Source: an uncultured Lachnospiraceae bacterium
Lineage (GTDB): Bacteria; Bacillota; Clostridia; Lachnospirales; Lachnospiraceae
DNA: 62,765 nucleotides
Direction: 5' to 3'
Assembly: GCA_947385425.1 (NCBI GenBank)
Contig: CANDKY010000006.1
Span: forward strand, 1-62,765
Shown: positions 2,450-46,145 of the stretch, piece after piece
How positions within the stretch are numbered: the stretch's first letter is position 1
How the letters are laid out: each line of letters begins with the position of its first letter
The notes under the pieces: generated by a model
Databases searched by the model: none
What the model saw: only the letters and a program-made list of their open reading frames with translations
What the model was told of the DNA's origin: nothing
Position numbers and translations under genes: made by a program

Positions 2450-4267
2450 ATGGGAAATAGAAGATATATAAAGGCAGGTATATTTTTATTCGGATGCCTT
2501 TTTTTCGTTTCCGGGGCTGGGGGCAGGGCGGAAGGGAAGAAGGATGCTTTGGGCAGTATTCCTGAAGAAAAATCCTGCGGACTGTCCGCAAATTATTTTG
2601 CGAAAGTTACTGATGCAGATCCGTGGGCGGGAAAAGCGGTTTCTTCCGGATACATGCGCCGGGAGCCGGAAAAAGAGGGCAGGGATAAGAAGGGGGGAGA
2701 GATTGTACTGGGGGATGCCGATCTCAGGGAAATGGTTTATGAAAAGCTGGGGAAGGCGTCAGGCAGCCCGCTGTATGAAGAGGAACTGCAAAAGCTGGAA
2801 GGGCGGCTGGAGCTGACGGGGGTTGTCAATATATCCCTTGGAGCTGATCTGGATTTTATCAGGGCTTACTGTGATACGGGCAGTGTATATGAATGGGAAG
2901 TGGTTTTTACGCCGGATTTGCATGGATGGGAAGAGGGGCAGTTGGCGGGCCTGGGAGATTTGGAACAGCGGGTTAAAATATGCGGCAGTGATGGGACGGT
3001 GCCGGCCAGTGTACTGCCTTTTTTTACCGGGACCAGTGAACTGATATTTGAGTTTGACGATACGGAAGGAAAAATACCGGAGGGGAAATCCTTCCCTGCC
3101 CAGGTGAAAACGGTAGGTTTATATCAGTTTGCAGAGGGAAAGTACAGTAACCTGCTGCAAAATATGCGGGAATCGGAAGTGGAGCAGTTGGTTTTGTACG
3201 ATGCGATTCCGGGAGAGGGGAAGAATTGTTTTTGGCTGGATCAGGCGGCGGGAATGAAGAAGCTGGAATATCTGGATGCCGGGAGCAGTTTCCTGCGGGT
3301 GCGGGAACCGGAAAGCCTGGAAGGGATGGGGCTGCGTGAGCTGTGCGGGGCAATGGATACGGCAACCGGATTAGATTTTCTTAAGAAGCTGGAGAAATTG
3401 GAGAAGGTGACGCTGGCAGTCACAGAGGAGTCGGATTTAGAACCTTTGCTTGCGGAAGAAGGGCTGGCGCTGCGTCTGACTTTCTGCCGGGAAATGGCGG
3501 AATTTGAAGAGGGTATTTATACCGGGGAAGGCTCAGTGGTTAACGGCAGCCTGGATAGAATGCTGGATTGGAAAGAGGATAAGGAGGAAGAGGGGAATTT
3601 CCTGGCGATTTATCAGAGATACGCGGATGAGGGAAGGAGGGTGGAGTGCTTTTCCGTCCGCGGATGGGGGGAAGAGGAGGAAATGTATAATGTCAGGACT
3701 TTCCTGCGGGTAACGGATGGGAAACGGGTTTATGAACTGGATCCGGAAGATGGGGAGTGGGGGTTTGGCGATTACCGTCAGGATTATGTGAGCCTGAAGG
3801 ATATAAATTTTGACGGGGTTAAGGATATCACCCTGGATATGGGCAGCTTCGGGAACCAGGGCGCCAGCTATGAGGCGGGGTGGATATGGGACAGTGGGCG
3901 CGGGGAATATATCCGCTGCGATACATATAATAAAATTGTCAATCCCCGGGTGGACGGCGAACACAAATTGGTGCGGAGCAGTTGGCGTAACTGGGCGGCT
4001 TCCCATAGCTGGGCAATATACCGGTACGAAAACGGGGAGTTTGTGATGAAAAGCGAACTGACGGAGGAACTGCTCTATGGGGAGCAGATACCGGAGGGGA
4101 TGGAGGTGCCGGAAAATGCCGAGGTGTGGCAGTGGGTGGAACGGATATATGAGGACGGGAAAGTGGCGGAGACGAGAAGTTTTGTGATTGCCCATGTGGA
4201 AGGGGAGAAAGACGAGTACCCGGAGGCTTATGAAAAATTTTATGAGGAGGACAGTTATTGGGGGTGA
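2450..4267 (+). CDS. Secreted or lipid-anchored protein of unknown function
   Basis: A 605-residue product if translation begins at ATG 2450, chosen because AGAAGGGGG lies about 8 bases upstream; starts at 2378 and 2402 are also in frame. The N-terminus MGNRRYIKAGIFLFGCLFFV is a signal sequence; LFGC could be a lipobox, but the hydrophobic stretch continues past the Cys, so ordinary secretion is equally likely. The middle (about residues 150-330) has leucine-spaced segments resembling degenerate leucine-rich repeats. The C-terminal third holds an acidic DINFDGVKDITLD motif like the Ca-binding-type repeats of XAC2610-like proteins, followed by an aromatic-rich segment. No enzyme motif was found. 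The tgt gene follows. Confidence 0.7.
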   Translation: MGNRRYIKAGIFLFGCLFFVSGAGGRAEGKKDALGSIPEEKSCGLSANYFAKVTDADPWAGKAVSSGYMRREPEKEGRDKKGGEIVLGDADLREMVYEKLGKASGSPLYEEELQKLEGRLELTGVVNISLGADLDFIRAYCDTGSVYEWEVVFTPDLHGWEEGQLAGLGDLEQRVKICGSDGTVPASVLPFFTGTSELIFEFDDTEGKIPEGKSFPAQVKTVGLYQFAEGKYSNLLQNMRESEVEQLVLYDAIPGEGKNCFWLDQAAGMKKLEYLDAGSSFLRVREPESLEGMGLRELCGAMDTATGLDFLKKLEKLEKVTLAVTEESDLEPLLAEEGLALRLTFCREMAEFEEGIYTGEGSVVNGSLDRMLDWKEDKEEEGNFLAIYQRYADEGRRVECFSVRGWGEEEEMYNVRTFLRVTDGKRVYELDPEDGEWGFGDYRQDYVSLKDINFDGVKDITLDMGSFGNQGASYEAGWIWDSGRGEYIRCDTYNKIVNPRVDGEHKLVRSSWRNWAASHSWAIYRYENGEFVMKSELTEELLYGEQIPEGMEVPENAEVWQWVERIYEDGKVAETRSFVIAHVEGEKDEYPEAYEKFYEEDSYWG

Positions 4268-4391
4268 AAAAATCTGATTGCAAAACTCCAGGTAAAATCG
4301 TAAAATAGGAAGGATATTGAATATTTTTTGAAAAACAGTTCCGCAGATTCTTGTAACTGGTATGGGACAGATTCACTTGGAGGAAAGAAAA

Positions 4392-37884: not shown

Positions 37885-39444
37885 TTATGTTATTTCTTCA
37901 ATGATACACCGATGTTCTTTCTTTCTGGTATCATAAACAAGGCCGACAGCGAGGATAGTTCCGGCTTTCTCCTTTTTCAGTTTTTCGCAGTATTCCTTGT
38001 CCTTAATCTGTGCAATGGCGGCTTCCGGGGTATCATCAGCTTTTAGTTCGAGTATAATTACGGGCATGTTTTTGTACAGTGGGTAAAAAATAAAATCAGC
38101 AAAGCCTTTGCCGCTTTTTTCTTCTCTTTCCACAGTGTATTTATTTCTTGCAGAGAGATATGCAAGTGTTACCACGCAGGACAGGCTGTTTTCGTCATTG
38201 TATTTTAAGACAGGGAGTTCGCTGTTATGGATATTGTGGAGAAGGGATGCCACAATATCCCCTTTCCTGTTTAAAGTTGCGTCCAGCACTTTGTCGGAAT
38301 TACGGACAAGTTCAGCTACGTAGCCGAAGCCGTCGTCTTTTAGCGCTTTTTGGTATTCCAGCATTAGTTCTCTGTTTGGTATTCTGATTTCACCGTCATG
38401 GTATGATAAAAGGCCGTAAATAATCATGGCGGAGTAAATTTCAGTCCTGTTTTCAGGCGTTTTCTGCCTGGCGGTATATTCTTCTTCGATATCCATCCGG
38501 ATAATGGTATTATTTACCATTTTAACAACATCATCGCGTACATCAGCGATATTGTATTTCAGGAAGAATAGTACTTCGTCCGTTTTGCCGCTTTTGGTCC
38601 GGTAACTCTGGCAGGCAGAATCTTCAAGCGCGCACACAACGGAACGGGGGTTATACAGGCGGGCGCCGTTCCTTGTCTGGTATCCGTTATACCAGTTGTT
38701 TATTTCATCCATAGCCAATGCGGACTGTTTTCCGCAGAGGGTTTTCACTTCGTTTTCTGTAAATCCGAAATATTCATCAAAAAACGGGGCTTTGAGCATA
38801 GTATAGTCCTGGAACATATTCAGTGCGGAACCGGTGCTGTATTTTTTTATGGGCAGAACCCCTGTCATGTAAGCCAGGGCGACATAGGGCTGATCTTTCA
38901 GCAGGTTTCTCAGAAATTCCAGGAAGTCGCCATGATGTTCGGGGAACAGTTCATGGCTGAATATATAATCCCATTCATCAATAAGGAAAATGAACCGGTT
39001 ATCCGTGGCGGCCAGTATATCCGGAAGGCTGTCGAATTCCCTGTTTTGAAGTCCGGGGTATGCTTCCAATATATCACGTTTTAACGAATTCCTGATAAGG
39101 CTGATATAGTCCTCATAGGTAGAGCCATTGTCGGATAAACGGTTCAGGCATAAATGGATGACGTCATATCGGTTCAGATGGGCGGTGTAAGTTTCGCTTT
39201 TGCTGATGTTCAGCCGGCTGAATATTTCCGAAGTATTATACGCACTGCAATAATAGGCTCCAAGCATGTTGAGCACTGAAGTTTTCCCGAAACGGCGGGG
39301 TTTGGTAATGCATACGTACTTTGAACTGGTACGGATGCGTTTGCTGATTTTTTCGATTAACGCAGATTTATCGATGAAGTATTGGCTGTCTAACAATTCC
39401 TGATATAAAATAAGGGCAGATTTGGTATTTAAGCATAAAGCCAT
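37885..39444 (-). CDS. AAA-ATPase-like / PD-(D/E)XK protein, intact
   Basis: A 519-residue protein. N-terminal P-loop region CITKPRRFGKTSVLNMLGAY (residues ~46-65), Walker B FIFLIDEWDYIFSHELF, sensor-like LAYMTGVLPIKKYSTGSALN, then C-terminal nuclease-like domain (KSGKGFADFIFYP, PVIILELKADDTPEAAIAQI with the D...ExK pattern). This is the only intact copy of three in the window; 22456-22998 is a fragment of the same subfamily, and 20525-22229 is a frameshifted cousin. A ribosome site AAGGAGG precedes the ATG on the minus strand. Role unknown. Confidence 0.9.
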   Translation of the reverse strand: MALCLNTKSALILYQELLDSQYFIDKSALIEKISKRIRTSSKYVCITKPRRFGKTSVLNMLGAYYCSAYNTSEIFSRLNISKSETYTAHLNRYDVIHLCLNRLSDNGSTYEDYISLIRNSLKRDILEAYPGLQNREFDSLPDILAATDNRFIFLIDEWDYIFSHELFPEHHGDFLEFLRNLLKDQPYVALAYMTGVLPIKKYSTGSALNMFQDYTMLKAPFFDEYFGFTENEVKTLCGKQSALAMDEINNWYNGYQTRNGARLYNPRSVVCALEDSACQSYRTKSGKTDEVLFFLKYNIADVRDDVVKMVNNTIIRMDIEEEYTARQKTPENRTEIYSAMIIYGLLSYHDGEIRIPNRELMLEYQKALKDDGFGYVAELVRNSDKVLDATLNRKGDIVASLLHNIHNSELPVLKYNDENSLSCVVTLAYLSARNKYTVEREEKSGKGFADFIFYPLYKNMPVIILELKADDTPEAAIAQIKDKEYCEKLKKEKAGTILAVGLVYDTRKKEHRCIIEEIT

Positions 39445-39756: not shown

Positions 39757-40030
39757 GTTAAAGGTATGGATTCACAGGCTTGTAACGTCATCTCCTACAA
39801 AGATATCCTTTTGCGGTTGTGATTGCCTATAAACGTGGGTGTAATTTTGTTTTGTGCTTCCTTATGATGGAAGAGGGCGGTATAAAAGTACCAATATGAG
39901 CCTTTTCAGGATGTGGAATGCGGGAAATGGTATGTCTGGTGCGGATAACTGTAAAACGGCAAAATTATTTCTTCTGTGCGGTTGGTGCAGGAAAAAGGCA
40001 GGGCGTAGAAAGGCAGGCCGCGGGAAAGAC

Positions 40031-40138
40031 AGAGCAGGGGAAAGAGAAAGGATAAGGGAAAGAGGAAGAATAAAGGAAAAAGACAGAATAAGGGAAAGAG
40101 GCAGAACAAGGGAAAGAGACAGAATATAAGAAAGGAAG
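40031..40138 (+). repeat. 18-bp purine tandem repeats before the sortase-adhesin
   Basis: About six units of consensus AGAATAAGGGAAAGAGRC (for example 40067-40084, 40085-40102, 40103-40120, 40121-40138), almost purely purine on the plus strand. The last unit merges into the GGAAGAGGAC ribosome site of the gene at 40144. The rest of 39757-40030 has no recognisable gene. Confidence 0.85.
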
Positions 40139-40143
40139 AGGAC

Positions 40144-43100
40144 ATGAGAAACGGACAGAACGCAGGAATGAGACAGGGTGTAAGAAGGGGATCCAGCAAA
40201 AAGACAGAACGGCGCAGGGGAGTGGAAAGCGGCGGCAGGTATTCAGTATGGTGTGCCGGAGCCCGGGAGAGGCGGAGGGTGCAAAAAGAAGGAGTGGAAG
40301 GAAGCTGTGTTGGCGTCTTCCGTTTTGTCCTTGGCCTTGCACTGGGGGCGGGGGTTATGGAAGGGGGGCAGATGGAGTTGAGAGCCTCTGGTTATGAGGC
40401 CAGGATAGGGGATGATTATTACGGGAGCCTGGAGGAAGCTTTTGGTGATGCGGAGGAGGGGGATACGGTTTATGTCCTGAAGGATTGCAGCGTGTCGGAA
40501 ACTTTGGCGGTTAACGCGGAGGATGTTGTACTGATGAGCGGTGATGCGGAGAGTCCGGTTACTGTGAGCAGGGAGGGGGATTTTTCAGGGAAGGATTATT
40601 TCCTGGAAGGTACAGGGAATATTTTGGTAGCGGTAGACGGCGGGAGCCTGACAACGCGGGACATTATTCTGGACGGCGGGGCGGTTCTTGATGGGGAGTT
40701 TGGCAATTCCGGACAGGTATGGGACAGCCCTTTGGTGTATGTAAAGGGGACTTACCGGATGGAAAACGGGACGGTGCTGCAGAATAATTATAATACGGAC
40801 GGAAGCGAGGGAAACAGTGCGGCAAGGTTTGCCGGGGCAGTGCAGGTGATGGAGGGCGGAAGGTTTGATATGCGGGGAGGGCTTATCCGTAATTGCTATA
40901 CAAACGGTTCCGGCGGAGGCGTCCACGCACGGAACGGTTCGAGCGTGTCAATGGTATCCGGGAATATTTGGAATTGCTGCGGAATGACAGGGGGAGCGAT
41001 GGCTTTTTTCGGCTCGGCAGAGGTGTCCAATATGACATTATCGGGGAACTGTGCCAGAATGGGCGGAGCGGTGGAGATACATCATGAGGTGAGGATTTCG
41101 GGGTGTGTGGTGGAAAATAACCGGGCTTTTTTACGGGGCGGCGCGGTCGGGATTTCCGGGGATTATCCGGTTACGCTGGAAGGGTGTCTGATTACCGGGA
41201 ACAGCGCTGCAGAGGGAAGCGCCGTAAGCATATCGGACGCAGGCGGGAACAGCCGGCCGGTTTTGAGGGATTGCACAATTACGGGGAACCGTGTGCCGGG
41301 GGGTTATAACGGTGCGATCCACTATATGGGCAGGGCAGGTATGGTGTTGGACGGGGATATTGCCATGGAGGGTAATTTGGCAGCGGACGGGGCAGGGTGT
41401 GACATTTCCTTTGTGTACGCGGAGGCGGCCCCGGTTTCGTTGGGGGAAGGTTTCCGGAGTCCGTCTGTTTTTGCCCTGGGAGGGAGCGACAGGATCGTTT
41501 CGGGGAAATGGCTGATCGATGCTTCTTCCTGGGGGAAGGAGGCGGATGCGGGGCAGTTTGTATGGAGCGGGGATAATTACTGTACGGAGGCGAGGGACGG
41601 CGATATTTATCTGTCGGATGTCCCGGGAAGGTATATTCTCTTTTATGATGCTAATAATGGGGAAATTGATTTTTGCGAGGATCCGGAAAGGTATACCAGT
41701 GGAGAGCCTGCGGTGGCTGCGGGGTGGGGGACGATTTTTCCGGATGGGCATGGGAAAGAAGGATGCATTTTTACCGGCTGGAATACAAAAGCTGACGGGA
41801 CAGGGACGGATTATCGGGAAGGAGAGGAAATATATCTGACGGATAATCTCTGGCTGTATGCGATGTGGAAGGAAGGGCAAAAGGTTACGGTTACTTTTAT
41901 TTATAACGGGGGAAGCGGGGAAAAGGAGAGGGAGCAGGTTTTGTATGGTTCCCCGGTTGTATTGCCGGATGCGTCCCGGGAGGGATATGTGTTCCGGGGA
42001 TGGTATGAGGATGAGGGGTGCTCAGTTTTGGCAGGAGCACCCGGGGAGGATTATATACCAGGAAGGGATAGGCTGCTTTACGCCGGGTGGGTGCCGTCAG
42101 GGACAGAGGGCGGTAATGGTACGGGCGGTGAAGGGAGCGAGGAGAACGGAAATGAAGGTAATGTGGGAGGTGAGGGTAACGGAGGAAGCGAGGGGGAAGA
42201 TAACGGAGGAAGTGAAGGTAAGGATGAAGATGAAGGTAAGGGTGAAGATGAAGGTAAGGAAGAGGATGAAGGTAACGGAGAAGGTGAAAGTAAGGAAGAG
42301 GATGAAGGTAAGGGAGATGAAGGTAACAAAGGAAGTGAGGGTGAAGGAGAGAATGAAGGTGACGTAGGGGATGAAGGTAAGGGAGAGGATGAAGGTAACA
42401 AAGGAAGTGAGGGTGAAGGAGAGGATGAAGGTGACGTAGGGAATGAAGGTAAGGGAGAGGATGAGGGGAAGCCGGGAAATGAAGGTAACGAGCGTGAGGA
42501 AGAAGATGAGGAACAGAAAGACGGAGATGGTGAAGAGAATATAGAAAAGGGAGAAAGCAAAGGAGATGGAAGCAGCGAAGATGGTGGAAGGAACAGGGAT
42601 AGCAAGGGAGACGGGGGAAGTAAAAGGGATGGAGGAAAGGAAGAGGATAGGGGGAACAGGGAAGAGGAAAAAAGCAGAAGGAAGAAGGAAAACAATGAGT
42701 TAGGGGAAGCGCGGGAAAAGGATACGTTTATTCGGACAGGGCGTTTTCCGTTTTTGGATTTTTTTGCCCTGGCAGGGATGGGGAGTATTGTTTTTCTTCT
42801 GTTCTTCCGTATAAAGAAGATATACGGGGAAGCGGAAAGGGGTTGTTTAAGAAAAAAACGGCAGCCAAAGGATGTATCCGGATATGCGGAGCTGCACCGT
42901 GATGTTATGGCGGTTAGGGCCAGAGCGGGGAAAAAGGAAAGGATGGCATTATGGCTGTTTTGGGTTGGGATTGTTTTGCTTTTTATTTCACTTTCAGGTA
43001 TGGTAATTTTTTATCTTTGGGAAAAGGGGGAGGCGGAGCGGTATAGGGAAATAGCAAAAGCCTGCGTATTGTGCGGGGAAGGGTGCGCAGAAGAGGAAAC

Positions 43101-43725
43101 CGGAGTACAGGGGGGAGACGGGGAGAAGGGGATGGCAGCTTATGATTGGGAGGCGCTTTGCAGTGTGAATCCGGATACGGCGGGGTGGCTGTATTTGCCG
43201 GGTGGGCGGATTGATTTGCCGGTGGCAGGGGCTAAGGATAATGAATTTTACCTTTCCCATGATTTTACCGGGGCAGCGAGCCGTATAGGTTGCCTTTTTA
43301 TGGATAGGGATACGGACAGCGGGGATTTTAACAGGGTTATTTATGGCCATAATATGGGTACAGGTTCCGAAGCTATGTTTTCAACGCTGCTAAGATATGG
43401 GGAAGAGGAATATTTCCGGGAAAACAGGTTTTTGTATTTTGCGGATGTTTATGGGAACAGTTCCAGGTATGAGGTTATGGCGGTCATAAAATATGATGTG
43501 GGGGATGTGACGGAATGGGATTTCCGGGAAAGGAATTTCGGCAGTGCAAAAGATCGGGAAGCATGGATGGGTCAGATACAGGAGCGGGCGCTCTATTTCC
43601 GGCGGCCGGAAAGGGGAGTGGAAAGGATGATTACATTGTCGACCTGTGACAGGAGGGAATATGGGAGGGATGGAAGGTTTCTGGTGTTTGCCTCGGAAAG
43701 CCAGTCCGGTAAGGGAGGAGGTTAA
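40144..43725 (+). CDS. Surface adhesin fused to a class B sortase
   Basis: A continuous 1193-residue frame. Residues ~1-80: basic stretch and hydrophobic signal core (VGVFRFVLGLALGAGVM). ~85-440: right-handed beta-helix type repeats (GGAVxI...GCxITGNSA). ~497-578 and ~581-650: two InlB/Listeria-Bacteroides repeats (FTGWNTKADGTG, FRGWYEDEG). ~652-858: Glu/Gly/Lys/Asp stalk. 860-892: DTFIRTG, then a membrane helix, then RIKK, the layout of a cell-wall sorting signal. 935-959: second helix. ~1000-1193: class B sortase with His1069 (YGHNM), Cys1168 (LSTC) and Arg1178 (GRFLVFA). Helix pair topology puts both adhesin and sortase outside. A two-gene ancestor fused in frame is the simplest origin. 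No sequence break was seen, but I cannot exclude processing into two parts. Confidence 0.88.
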   Translation: MRNGQNAGMRQGVRRGSSKKTERRRGVESGGRYSVWCAGARERRRVQKEGVEGSCVGVFRFVLGLALGAGVMEGGQMELRASGYEARIGDDYYGSLEEAFGDAEEGDTVYVLKDCSVSETLAVNAEDVVLMSGDAESPVTVSREGDFSGKDYFLEGTGNILVAVDGGSLTTRDIILDGGAVLDGEFGNSGQVWDSPLVYVKGTYRMENGTVLQNNYNTDGSEGNSAARFAGAVQVMEGGRFDMRGGLIRNCYTNGSGGGVHARNGSSVSMVSGNIWNCCGMTGGAMAFFGSAEVSNMTLSGNCARMGGAVEIHHEVRISGCVVENNRAFLRGGAVGISGDYPVTLEGCLITGNSAAEGSAVSISDAGGNSRPVLRDCTITGNRVPGGYNGAIHYMGRAGMVLDGDIAMEGNLAADGAGCDISFVYAEAAPVSLGEGFRSPSVFALGGSDRIVSGKWLIDASSWGKEADAGQFVWSGDNYCTEARDGDIYLSDVPGRYILFYDANNGEIDFCEDPERYTSGEPAVAAGWGTIFPDGHGKEGCIFTGWNTKADGTGTDYREGEEIYLTDNLWLYAMWKEGQKVTVTFIYNGGSGEKEREQVLYGSPVVLPDASREGYVFRGWYEDEGCSVLAGAPGEDYIPGRDRLLYAGWVPSGTEGGNGTGGEGSEENGNEGNVGGEGNGGSEGEDNGGSEGKDEDEGKGEDEGKEEDEGNGEGESKEEDEGKGDEGNKGSEGEGENEGDVGDEGKGEDEGNKGSEGEGEDEGDVGNEGKGEDEGKPGNEGNEREEEDEEQKDGDGEENIEKGESKGDGSSEDGGRNRDSKGDGGSKRDGGKEEDRGNREEEKSRRKKENNELGEAREKDTFIRTGRFPFLDFFALAGMGSIVFLLFFRIKKIYGEAERGCLRKKRQPKDVSGYAELHRDVMAVRARAGKKERMALWLFWVGIVLLFISLSGMVIFYLWEKGEAERYREIAKACVLCGEGCAEEETGVQGGDGEKGMAAYDWEALCSVNPDTAGWLYLPGGRIDLPVAGAKDNEFYLSHDFTGAASRIGCLFMDRDTDSGDFNRVIYGHNMGTGSEAMFSTLLRYGEEEYFRENRFLYFADVYGNSSRYEVMAVIKYDVGDVTEWDFRERNFGSAKDREAWMGQIQERALYFRRPERGVERMITLSTCDRREYGRDGRFLVFASESQSGKGGG

Positions 43726-43828: not shown

Positions 43829-44665
43829 TTAGTATACGATGGAGAATGCGCCAAATACTTTTGTATTGATAGTGATTGACCTCGGGTCTGTATCGATGTC
43901 ATCCATAACAACGGTCTTGCCTGTCGGATCGATAACAAGGATAGAGAAGTTACGGTTTGCATTTACAAAACGTCCCGGGATACCGAATGCAACGGTAACA
44001 GGTTCGGAAGCTGTGGTAACTTTCGTTACAACACCTCTCTTGGTAATTGTGTACAGATCCATGTTCACGAAACCAGCTACGGTCTTGCCTGCTGCTGCAG
44101 CAGCGTTCTGGAGAGATGCCCTGGAAGCCTGGTCACGGTTGTCACAGATGTAGCTGCGTACGTTGGTTCCGGCCTGTACCTCTGCACTGCTCAAACCGAT
44201 TGCGGAAGCAAGGTTTGCCATAGGAGTGGTGATAGCTGTCCCTGTAACACTTGTAGCTGTGAAGATACCGCCAACAGTAGATGTTACGCGGCTGCTGCCA
44301 ATTACTACGGAAGCGCCTGCACGGGATGTAACTACAGCCGGAGCACTCGTTGTGTCATTGGAAGAACTGGATTCTTCGCTGGAAGAGCTTCCATTGTCAG
44401 AAACGGAGTTGTCCGGTGCATCAGGAGTATCCGGTGTGTCGGGAGTATCCGGCGTATCCGGTGTGTCGGGAGTATCCGGCGTATCCGGTGTGTCGGGAGT
44501 ATCCGGCGTGTCAGGCGTATCCGGGTTATTGTCTGATGGATCCTCATTACCAGAAGCATAAGCTACTGCATTACTTGCACCAGTAGCGTCTGTCAGCAAA
44601 ATCGGCACGCAAAGAGCAGCGCTGACCGCAATTGCCAACAATTTGTTAACAGTTTGTCTTTTCAT
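43829..44665 (-). CDS. Secreted protein with DTP repeats
   Basis: A 278-residue secreted protein; ATG 44665 follows AAAGGAGG and gives a clean signal peptide (MKRQTVNKLLAIAVSAALCV, cleavage near AYASG). Residues ~45-85 are about a dozen Pro-Asp-Thr repeats, then a Ser-rich spacer (SSSSEESSSS), and a C-terminal domain (SSAEVQAGTNVRSYICDNRD, VAFGIPGRFVNANRNFSILV) ending KVFGAFSIVY. No sorting signal. The repeats look like a wall-spanning stalk. A TTGACA-N17-TAAAAT promoter precedes. Function unknown; the pairing with a surface adhesin suggests an envelope protein. Confidence 0.85.
   Translation of the reverse strand: MKRQTVNKLLAIAVSAALCVPILLTDATGASNAVAYASGNEDPSDNNPDTPDTPDTPDTPDTPDTPDTPDTPDTPDTPDTPDAPDNSVSDNGSSSSEESSSSNDTTSAPAVVTSRAGASVVIGSSRVTSTVGGIFTATSVTGTAITTPMANLASAIGLSSAEVQAGTNVRSYICDNRDQASRASLQNAAAAAGKTVAGFVNMDLYTITKRGVVTKVTTASEPVTVAFGIPGRFVNANRNFSILVIDPTGKTVVMDDIDTDPRSITINTKVFGAFSIVY
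44400..44535 (-). repeat. Short tandem repeats encoding Pro-Asp-Thr
   Basis: Nine-base units (GTATCCGGC, GTGTCGGGA and variants on the plus strand) in a higher-order 27-base pattern. Expansion or loss would keep frame and change stalk length. Confidence 0.85.
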
Positions 44666-44723
44666 TGAAAAAGTCCTCCTTTGATAGTTGAAAATATGTA
44701 GATTAGTTATCTTACACCTAATC

Positions 44724-44752
44724 ATTTTATAGTTATTGGCGTATGATGTCAA
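44724..44752 (-). promoter_or_regulatory. Promoter of the DTP-repeat protein
   Basis: On the minus strand TTGACA (44752-44747), 17-base spacer, TAAAAT (44729-44724), about 60 bases before the ATG: a near-consensus strong promoter. Confidence 0.75.
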
Positions 44753-45191: not shown

Positions 45192-46145
45192 ATGGCAAAT
45201 ATATATGACGGGGCATTCCGGACAATCCTGAATGACTGCCGGAAGCTGATTATCCCCATAATCAATGAAATTTTCGGGGAAACATATACAGGGGAGGAAG
45301 AAATCCGTTTTTTCCCAAATGAACATTTTTTAGGCCAGCAGGATGAGGCAGGAAAGGAACGTATTACAGATACAAATTTTACGGTTTTCGGGAGGATACC
45401 AAAGAAATACCATTTAGAGTGTGAAAGCAGTCTGCCGGATGGGAAAATTACGATAAGGCTTTTTGAATACGATGCCCAAATCGCGCTGGACGAGGGTGAG
45501 GCCACAGAGGAAACGCTAACCGTAACATTTCCCAATACAGCGGTTTTGTACCTCCGTACTTTCAAAAAGACACCGGACAAAATGAAATATGTGATTATTA
45601 CACCAGGCGGGATGGTTCAGTATGATGTACCAATTATGAAAGTACAAATGTATTCACTGGATGATATTTTTGAAAAAGGTTTGTTGATGCTGATTCCGTT
45701 TTATATTTTTTCACATGAGAAAAGTTTCCCGGAGTATAATAGCAATGAGAAGAAACTGGCGGAATTAAAGGCAGAGTATCAGAAAATTCTGGAAAGGCTT
45801 GACGGATTGGAACAGCAGGAAGTGATTGGGGCGTTTGATAAGCGGACAATCATAGAACTTTCCGGCGATGTGATTAAAGAGATTGCGCGAAAGTATGAGA
45901 ATGTGCAGAAAGGAATAGGTGGTATAATGAGCGGAGCATTGATTGAAACAAGTGCAAGGGCTATTCTAAATCAAGGTATTAATCAAGGTATTAATCAAGG
46001 TATTAATCAAGGTATTAGCCAGAATCAAAGGGAAACGGCGCTCCGGCTGTTGAAAAGGGGAAAACAGACAGTTGAGGAAATTGCGGAAGATACGGGACTT
46101 AACGTAAGGGATGTGGAGCAGATTGCAGGGCTTAGGACCGTGTAG
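45192..46145 (+). CDS. Rpn-family (PD-(D/E)XK) nuclease
   Basis: A 317-residue protein of the Rpn/recombination-promoting nuclease or transposase-associated PD-(D/E)XK group. FRTILNDCRKLIIPIINEIF opens the domain; YHLECESSLPDGKITIRLFE carries the E-x-E part of the active site. Residues ~190-255 are helical; four exact repeats encode NQGINQGI (45969-46016); the C-terminus has a helix-turn-helix (RLLKRGKQTVEEIAEDTGLN). Preceded by GGAAGGGAAAG and a large palindrome. Members are mobile, often linked to recombination or defence. The function here is not known. Confidence 0.85.
   Translation: MANIYDGAFRTILNDCRKLIIPIINEIFGETYTGEEEIRFFPNEHFLGQQDEAGKERITDTNFTVFGRIPKKYHLECESSLPDGKITIRLFEYDAQIALDEGEATEETLTVTFPNTAVLYLRTFKKTPDKMKYVIITPGGMVQYDVPIMKVQMYSLDDIFEKGLLMLIPFYIFSHEKSFPEYNSNEKKLAELKAEYQKILERLDGLEQQEVIGAFDKRTIIELSGDVIKEIARKYENVQKGIGGIMSGALIETSARAILNQGINQGINQGINQGISQNQRETALRLLKRGKQTVEEIAEDTGLNVRDVEQIAGLRTV
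45969..46016 (+). repeat. Four exact 12-bp repeats in the Rpn gene
   Basis: AATCAAGGTATT occurs four times without interruption. Each unit is four codons (Asn-Gln-Gly-Ile), so copy-number change would keep the frame and alter the hinge before the C-terminal helix-turn-helix. Confidence 0.92.

Follow-up and report, generated by a model that had tools for sequence, protein, structure and literature searches.

Sortases are trans-acting enzymes, and the surface proteins that they join to the cell wall are separate polypeptides. The systems closest to the protein described here are a dedicated class B sortase with its substrate, as encoded by srtB and isdC of the isd operon, and two fusions made by engineering. 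According to excerpts of the two reports, an engineered SrtA-LPETG-target single chain cuts itself at LPETG (PMC2901362) and the engineered STEPL fusion releases its target (PMC11561820), so the chemistry is workable within one chain; in a published model, described in part of PMC11987632, a short linker connects IsdC with SrtB, and the motif is in the active site. In the Lachnospiraceae, SrtB3 of Mediterraneibacter gnavus is needed for wall localisation of superantigens, as stated in an excerpt of PMC13121745. Here we describe a natural gene in which an adhesin and a sortase share one reading frame. It lies on contig CANDKY010000006.1 of an uncultured Lachnospiraceae bacterium of the gut (assembly GCA_947385425.1, a draft of 198 contigs, below G000); the stretch analysed, 62,765 nucleotides long, is called the window. 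We consider it probable that the encoded protein is a sortase substrate fused to its own dedicated class-B-like sortase, which would move its own adhesin, on the same or a neighbouring identical chain, to the wall.

The gene is one open frame of 1193 codons at 40144-43725 (+), without interruption; a sequence-only reading made earlier had described a single frame with this order of parts, and we find T865, G866, H1069, C1168 and R1178 exactly where it had put them. The chain starts with a long basic N-region and a hydrophobic stretch at residues 54-72, signal-peptide-like by hydropathy rather than by a signal-peptide predictor (residues 1-80; 40144-40383), and continues with a beta-helix adhesin region (residues 81-500; 40384-41643; Pfam Beta_helix, E 3.7e-8), two Listeria-Bacteroides (InlB-type) repeats (residues 501-650; 41644-42093; two stretches of Pfam Flg_new, E 5.8e-19, like Beta_helix above the gathering score) and an acidic stalk rich in Gly, Glu, Asp, Lys and Asn (residues 651-855; 42094-42708), with tandem DNA repeats at 42196-42492. 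The putative sorting motif FIRTG (residues 862-866; 42727-42741), predicted to be cut between T865 and G866, is followed by membrane helix 1 (residues 870-888; 42751-42807), a basic loop (residues 890-935; 42811-42948), membrane helix 2 (residues 938-956; 42955-43011), a linker (residues 957-996; 43012-43131) and the sortase domain (residues 997-1186; 43132-43701), all on the + strand. Immediately 5' of the start codon stands a purine-rich 18-base tandem repeat (40022-40133).

Pfam recognises a Sortase domain at residues 1044-1184 (E 8.8e-8; 32.4 bits against a gathering score of 26.6), and the nearest solved chains are those of Bacillus anthracis sortase B (E 1.2e-23 and 2.4e-23). The alignment to this enzyme brings the catalytic residues into register: His1069 (43348-43350), Cys1168 (43645-43647) and Arg1178 (43675-43677). 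Against NCBIfam TIGR03064, the class B sortase family, the protein scores 116.1 bits (E 1.4e-33) and misses the curated cut-off of 153.75, and we therefore call the enzyme class-B-like; its transpeptidase activity is predicted.

The Kyte-Doolittle profile has three peaks, at residues 54-72, 870-888 and 938-956. The net charge of the loop at 890-935 is +8, and that of the stretch past helix 2 is -5. By the positive-inside rule, which is well established for membrane topology, the loop is thus predicted to be cytoplasmic, and the motif and the sortase are both predicted to lie at the outer face, in agreement with the earlier proposal that the two share one side of the membrane. The segment has the makings of a sorting signal, with an xxxTG pentapeptide (FIRTG), a hydrophobic helix (870-888), RIKK and the basic loop. 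Position 2 of the motif is not Pro; it is Ile in all five beta-helix members, fused and split. The segment is also not C-terminal, since 327 residues follow Gly866 in the window protein.

The genome contains a second fused copy (C43) on a different contig (L038, 4376-8248, - strand); it encodes 1290 residues in the same order of parts, with the motif VIQTG, which aligns with FIRTG. Over aligned codons, identity between the two copies is 77% in the adhesin, with a ratio of nonsynonymous to synonymous substitution rates (dN/dS) of 0.19, and 70% in the sortase (dN/dS 0.22); the aligned stalk is 43% and the loop 19% identical, and the linker of C43 is much longer in the alignment. As a copy of the same order exists on another contig, neither chance read-through nor misassembly accounts for the frame: this is a genuine fusion that exists in two copies, and both of its halves are under purifying selection. 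Among the sortase matches listed for the 16 genomes of the genus, G000 is the only one with the long frame.

Among 397 genomes sampled from the family, the adhesin part occurs in four (G000 with two copies, G004, G317 and G401), and among 295 sampled from the order it occurs in two (G000 and G004). In G004, G317 and G401, adhesin (1283, 1273 and 1196 residues) and sortase (317, 306 and 314 residues) are adjoining open reading frames (ORFs), separated by 42, 20 and 20 bases. The designs vary: the adhesin of G004 shares about 50% identity with that of the window, and the G317 adhesin has nine Flg_new stretches, where the window protein has two and an acidic stalk. These split adhesins end in VIQTG followed by a helix and a short tail of basic character (REGKRSS), at the place where the fused chain continues. 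As the chains of these three proteins stop there, the internal FIRTG/helix/RIKK segment, which the sequence-only reading had called sorting-signal-like, is homologous to a true C-terminal sorting signal; the fused enzyme is homologous to the sortase encoded beside the split adhesins. The fusion is likelier the derived state, since three genomes have the split form and one has the fused form; the tree described below has fused and split sortases side by side and leaves the direction unfixed. Downstream of the split pairs are a DUF3801 gene (by Pfam in G317, alike by eye in G401) or, in G004, a type IV coupling protein gene, and the pairs thus lie on conjugative-type DNA. A further sortase, 58% identical to that of the window, is cut by the start of its contig (L112, 1-390); it is followed by three large genes that look recombinase-like by eye, and an element of this kind may carry a window-type pair with it.

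A scan of a genome contig collection with the whole protein matched 53 stretches and a scan of a viral contig collection with the adhesin matched 59, none of them a relative, and among the best 20 of 29 plasmid records and the best 20 of 22 phage records only the sortase or the repeat part of the window protein was matched.

A profile of the fusion junction (A1) led to a second family, in which a thioester/SpaA adhesin, the motif VPQTGDD, two helices and a class B sortase form one chain of about 1640 residues. Counts from this profile are lower bounds, with at most four candidates scored per genome, and fusions can escape it, as its coverage of the window copy is confined to the sortase part (104-322 of 323). 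Besides the two copies in G000, the 397 family genomes hold at least eight further frames about 1650 codons long, spread over seven genomes (G043, G050, G335, G028, G120, G315 and, twice, G229), and 398 genomes of the phylum hold at least one more (G517); all nine second-family frames were read individually. The one member scanned against domain models (L060) combines a thioester domain and nine SpaA domains with a sortase that passes TIGR03064 (178.7 against 153.75).

Named genomes were also scanned with patterns from the SpaA tail, outside the sortase, which gave 53 loci. In every one of the 44 that match from query residue 1-2 through 387-390, a single frame runs from the adhesin tail through the motif and two hydrophobic helices to the sortase. 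One locus is truncated by a contig end (L102), and eight match part of the adhesin only (L104-L111); of the five of these that were opened, L104-L107 end at VPKTGD, a helix and a basic tail and have no sortase ORF within the stretch, and L111 looks unrelated. Six of the 44 are without a full N-terminus, two at contig ends (L065, L094), one at a run of N (L085) and three where the frame starts late with different sequence (L063, L082, L092). The motif is VPQTGDD in 41 loci and VPRTGDD, VPQTSDS and VPQTSDD in one each; Pro occupies position 2 in all 44, as the motif pattern itself required. The catalytic His is present in all 44, and the Cys-Arg block was found in 41 by pattern and in three by reading. 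Some of these loci coincide with contigs of the G genomes, and 24 are left after removal of near-copies at 95%. Across the 24, the mean frequency of the commonest residue is 0.98 in VPQTG and 0.98 in DD, compared with 0.68 in the preceding stalk, 0.72 in helix 1, 0.66 in loop and helix 2, 0.68 in the linker and 0.85 in the sortase. In ten chosen pairs, dN/dS is 0.07-0.20 for the adhesin and 0.07-0.24 for the sortase.

Most second-family fusions adjoin mobile-element genes. Peptide patterns found a CD1107-like gene upstream in 38 of the 44, an NlpC/M23 gene in 27 and a topoisomerase III gene downstream in 22; contig ends and short flanks count as misses here, and Pfam confirmed the names in single examples. 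The hosts are gut bacteria, among them Blautia (with Blautia sp. An81, the source of L060), Catenibacillus (with Catenibacillus scindens), Longibaculum (Erysipelotrichia), Emergencia, Flintibacter, Pseudoflavonifractor, Gemmiger and Anaerotruncus, and two copies (L071 and L087) are in a record titled complete genome. Unfused arrangements exist as well: another SpaA-containing protein ends in MPQTGDD and is followed by a sortase as the next ORF (L116), a similar ORF has no recognised signal and lies beside a sortase (L140), and three others have a terminal signal and no sortase in the stretch (L141, L142 and the interrupted L143). The last is a thioester/SpaA-type adhesin gene of Subdoligranulum variabile (L143, 1765-8519) that is interrupted by an ORF resembling a group II intron protein by eye.

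In the mobile-element loci (L040, L041, L042, L059-L103, L126-L129) the CD1107-like membrane protein gene often directly precedes the fusion; in L040-L042 its product has a [DEK]TG or KGS stretch before a helix and might be a second substrate. Some sequences filed as viral carry the second-family protein, namely four IMG/VR contigs (L126-L129) and, from the phage collection, MT836027.1, which has its first 880 residues; L126, with its CD1107-like and topoisomerase genes, resembles a conjugative element more than a phage. Four other candidates were rejected as further fusions: an 855-codon open frame of G037 (L043) with no sortase ORF of at least 350 residues, and the sortases of L055, L057 and L058 (499, 436 and 434 residues), which have one predicted helix and no adhesin by eye.

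The sequence-only reading had named a fusion that is an artefact, with homologues always in separate genes, as an outcome that would overturn it; despite the three split-gene genomes, the fusion recurs in its own genome and in a second adhesin family. In a tree of 55 sortase domains, 12 of them from second-family fusions, the two window-type fusions group at 99/91 and, together with their split partners and L112, at 100/100, while the 12 second-family fusions group at 100/97. A branch at 100/95 parts the two sets, with stand-alone sortases on either side (8 and 29). As the tree separates the sortases and the adhesin parts also belong to different families, the simplest reading of these sequences is that the adhesin-sortase fusion had two origins. 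To the wider proposition, that nature has at least twice independently fused an adhesin to its own sortase and so produced a self-anchoring class, cut at an internal signal by an enzyme carried in the same chain, we give about an even chance.

In the mechanism that we suggest, the chain would be exported by means of its signal peptide, placing the adhesin and FIRTG outside; the two helices, with the basic loop between them, would make a hairpin through the membrane, after which the sortase domain would again be outside, and the hairpin would tether enzyme and motif together at the outer face. Cys1168 would attack T865-G866 of its own chain, or of a neighbouring identical chain, to give an acyl-enzyme; a wall precursor would then accept the adhesin, and a two-helix membrane remnant with the sortase would be left behind. 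The topology, from hydropathy and charge, and the cleavage, the preference for cis and the acceptor are inferred. The same architecture in the second copy, purifying selection, the split homologues with their adjacent sortase, the grouping of fused and split sortases in the tree and the second family all argue for this proposal, and so do the engineered fusions and the M. gnavus SrtB3 cited at the outset.

Other observations weigh against it. FIRTG differs at two positions from the VIQTG of its four relatives, is without the Pro of known motifs (LPXTG/NPQTN) and is followed by Arg, not Asp. From an excerpt of PMC11987632, B. anthracis SrtB asks for a P2' Asp, which NPKTGDE has, and for one at P5; the P2' Asp is present in the VPQTGDD of the second family, which speaks for the proposal, but the P5 Asp is absent from all 44 second-family loci (A in 24, P in 16, T in 4). 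The TIGR03064 cut-off is missed by the C-terminal part of the window protein (119.8), by C43 (91.1) and by the G317 sortase (111.5), which is the one split sortase scanned, and the Pfam Sortase score of C43, 19.9, is under the gathering score. Between the two fused copies the stretch from motif to helix 1 is 31% identical with dN/dS 0.45, a value that spans 29 codons, too few to weigh. In the ten second-family pairs, dN/dS from motif to helix 2 is 0.10-0.54, above most adhesin and sortase values.

Given the non-canonical motif, the chain might stay uncut, with the adhesin tethered in the membrane by the helix hairpin, which alone would hold it, and with the sortase serving other substrates in trans; such substrates are likely, since the genome has at least five other sortase-like loci. 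We nonetheless believe this to be improbable: [VF]I[QR]TG is kept in all five fused and split members, while the stalk and loop of the fused copies have diverged as described above, and in the second family the motif is the best-conserved stretch of the junction.

We are more doubtful still that the halves are made or become separate, either by an internal start near Met934 that yields a free sortase or by another protease that cuts the loop, which would leave an ordinary separate sortase. Met934 is indeed preceded by the purine-rich GCGGGGAAAAAGGAAAGG, a possible ribosome site, but purine-rich sequence is common throughout the gene, C43 has no comparable site by eye, and in the 24 non-redundant members of the second family the in-frame starts are at varying places, with no obvious ribosome site. 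Promoter-like sites number nine in the 4.6 kb region (shuffle mean 4.1, standard deviation 2.0); one on the + strand, at 43328-43355, is inside the sortase, but no + strand site falls within 41061-43327. A weak terminator-like site of 5 pairs at 42767-42783 would also fit separation; there are four terminator-like sites in the region (shuffle mean 3.3, standard deviation 1.7), and we do not read this stem as a real terminator.

A small chance remains with a sortase that acts as a polymerase, like the pilus-building class B sortase Spy0129, and joins adhesins together instead of linking them to the wall. The nine pilin-like SpaA domains of L060 would suit such a role; the window adhesin, on the other hand, is a beta-helix with no SpaA match, and no pilin-like gene was recognised by eye among its neighbours, where a dedicated pilin search was not made. 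An assembly artefact or a decaying read-through pseudogene, for which the draft state of the genome could speak, is barely credible and is rejected, being already largely refuted by the second copy with its different linker, by the dN/dS of about 0.2 in both halves and by the recurrence of the fusion in another family across many assemblies, the complete-genome record included.

Each of the two fusions has two flanking genes, one coding for an AAA ATPase (AAA-ATPase_like/PDDEXK_9, or AAA_14/DUF4143) and another that is alike by eye at both loci and without a Pfam match; these flanking genes are at 37885-39444 (-) and 45192-46145 (+) in the window and at 2838-4352 and 8517-9383 in L038. Near C43 (L038, 413-2740, and L138, 4260-19991) there is a row of large genes; one encodes a VWA protein by Pfam, and others look by eye like genes for KAP-like ATPases, a GTPase and perhaps a tubulin-like protein. 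The row may be a conflict system. In the window, 43829-44752 (-) encodes a secreted-looking protein of 307 residues without a Pfam match; its PDT repeat is encoded by a tandem array of 18/27/45 bases at 44404-44524. The ORFs upstream of the window copy look PhoH-, YbeY- and MurJ-like by eye, and judged from these the copy seems not to be on conjugative-type DNA.

All the parts of the window protein are of known kinds, and it is the arrangement that is the new element. Databases probably contain such fusion proteins without comment. Searches of an open-access library, which takes in few subscription papers and no bioRxiv preprints, listed engineered substrate-sortase fusions only and no natural one. 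A survey of fibrillar adhesins, according to an excerpt of PMC8286594, sought sorting motifs only in the last 50 residues, so that internal signals would be missed. If the self-anchoring proposal is true, an adhesin on a conjugative element would be independent of the sortases of the recipient cell, and the single chain would explain how mobile elements could show an adhesin in hosts with different sortases; found naturally in two adhesin families, it would amount to a ready-made self-anchoring module with enzyme and substrate fixed at 1:1.

The mobile-element thioester/SpaA adhesins are similar in their adhesin to the second family, and those of L104-L107 have no sortase in the chain. InlB-repeat (Listeria-Bacteroides) surface proteins share the Flg_new repeats, and in the split relatives the sorting signal is C-terminal; we know of no sortase domain in such proteins. 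The srtB/isdC system likewise has a dedicated enzyme, class B by sequence, whose gene adjoins that of a substrate with a sorting signal and membrane helix; unlike it, the fusion is one polypeptide, so that the enzyme is made 1:1 with its substrate and the signal is internal. Substrate, motif and sortase also stand in one chain in the engineered self-cleaving fusions, and in STEPL, reportedly a target with LPETG fused to a sortase A, the target precedes the motif, as in the window protein. These fusions are man-made and use sortase A, whereas the natural chain has two membrane helices between the motif and a class-B-like sortase.

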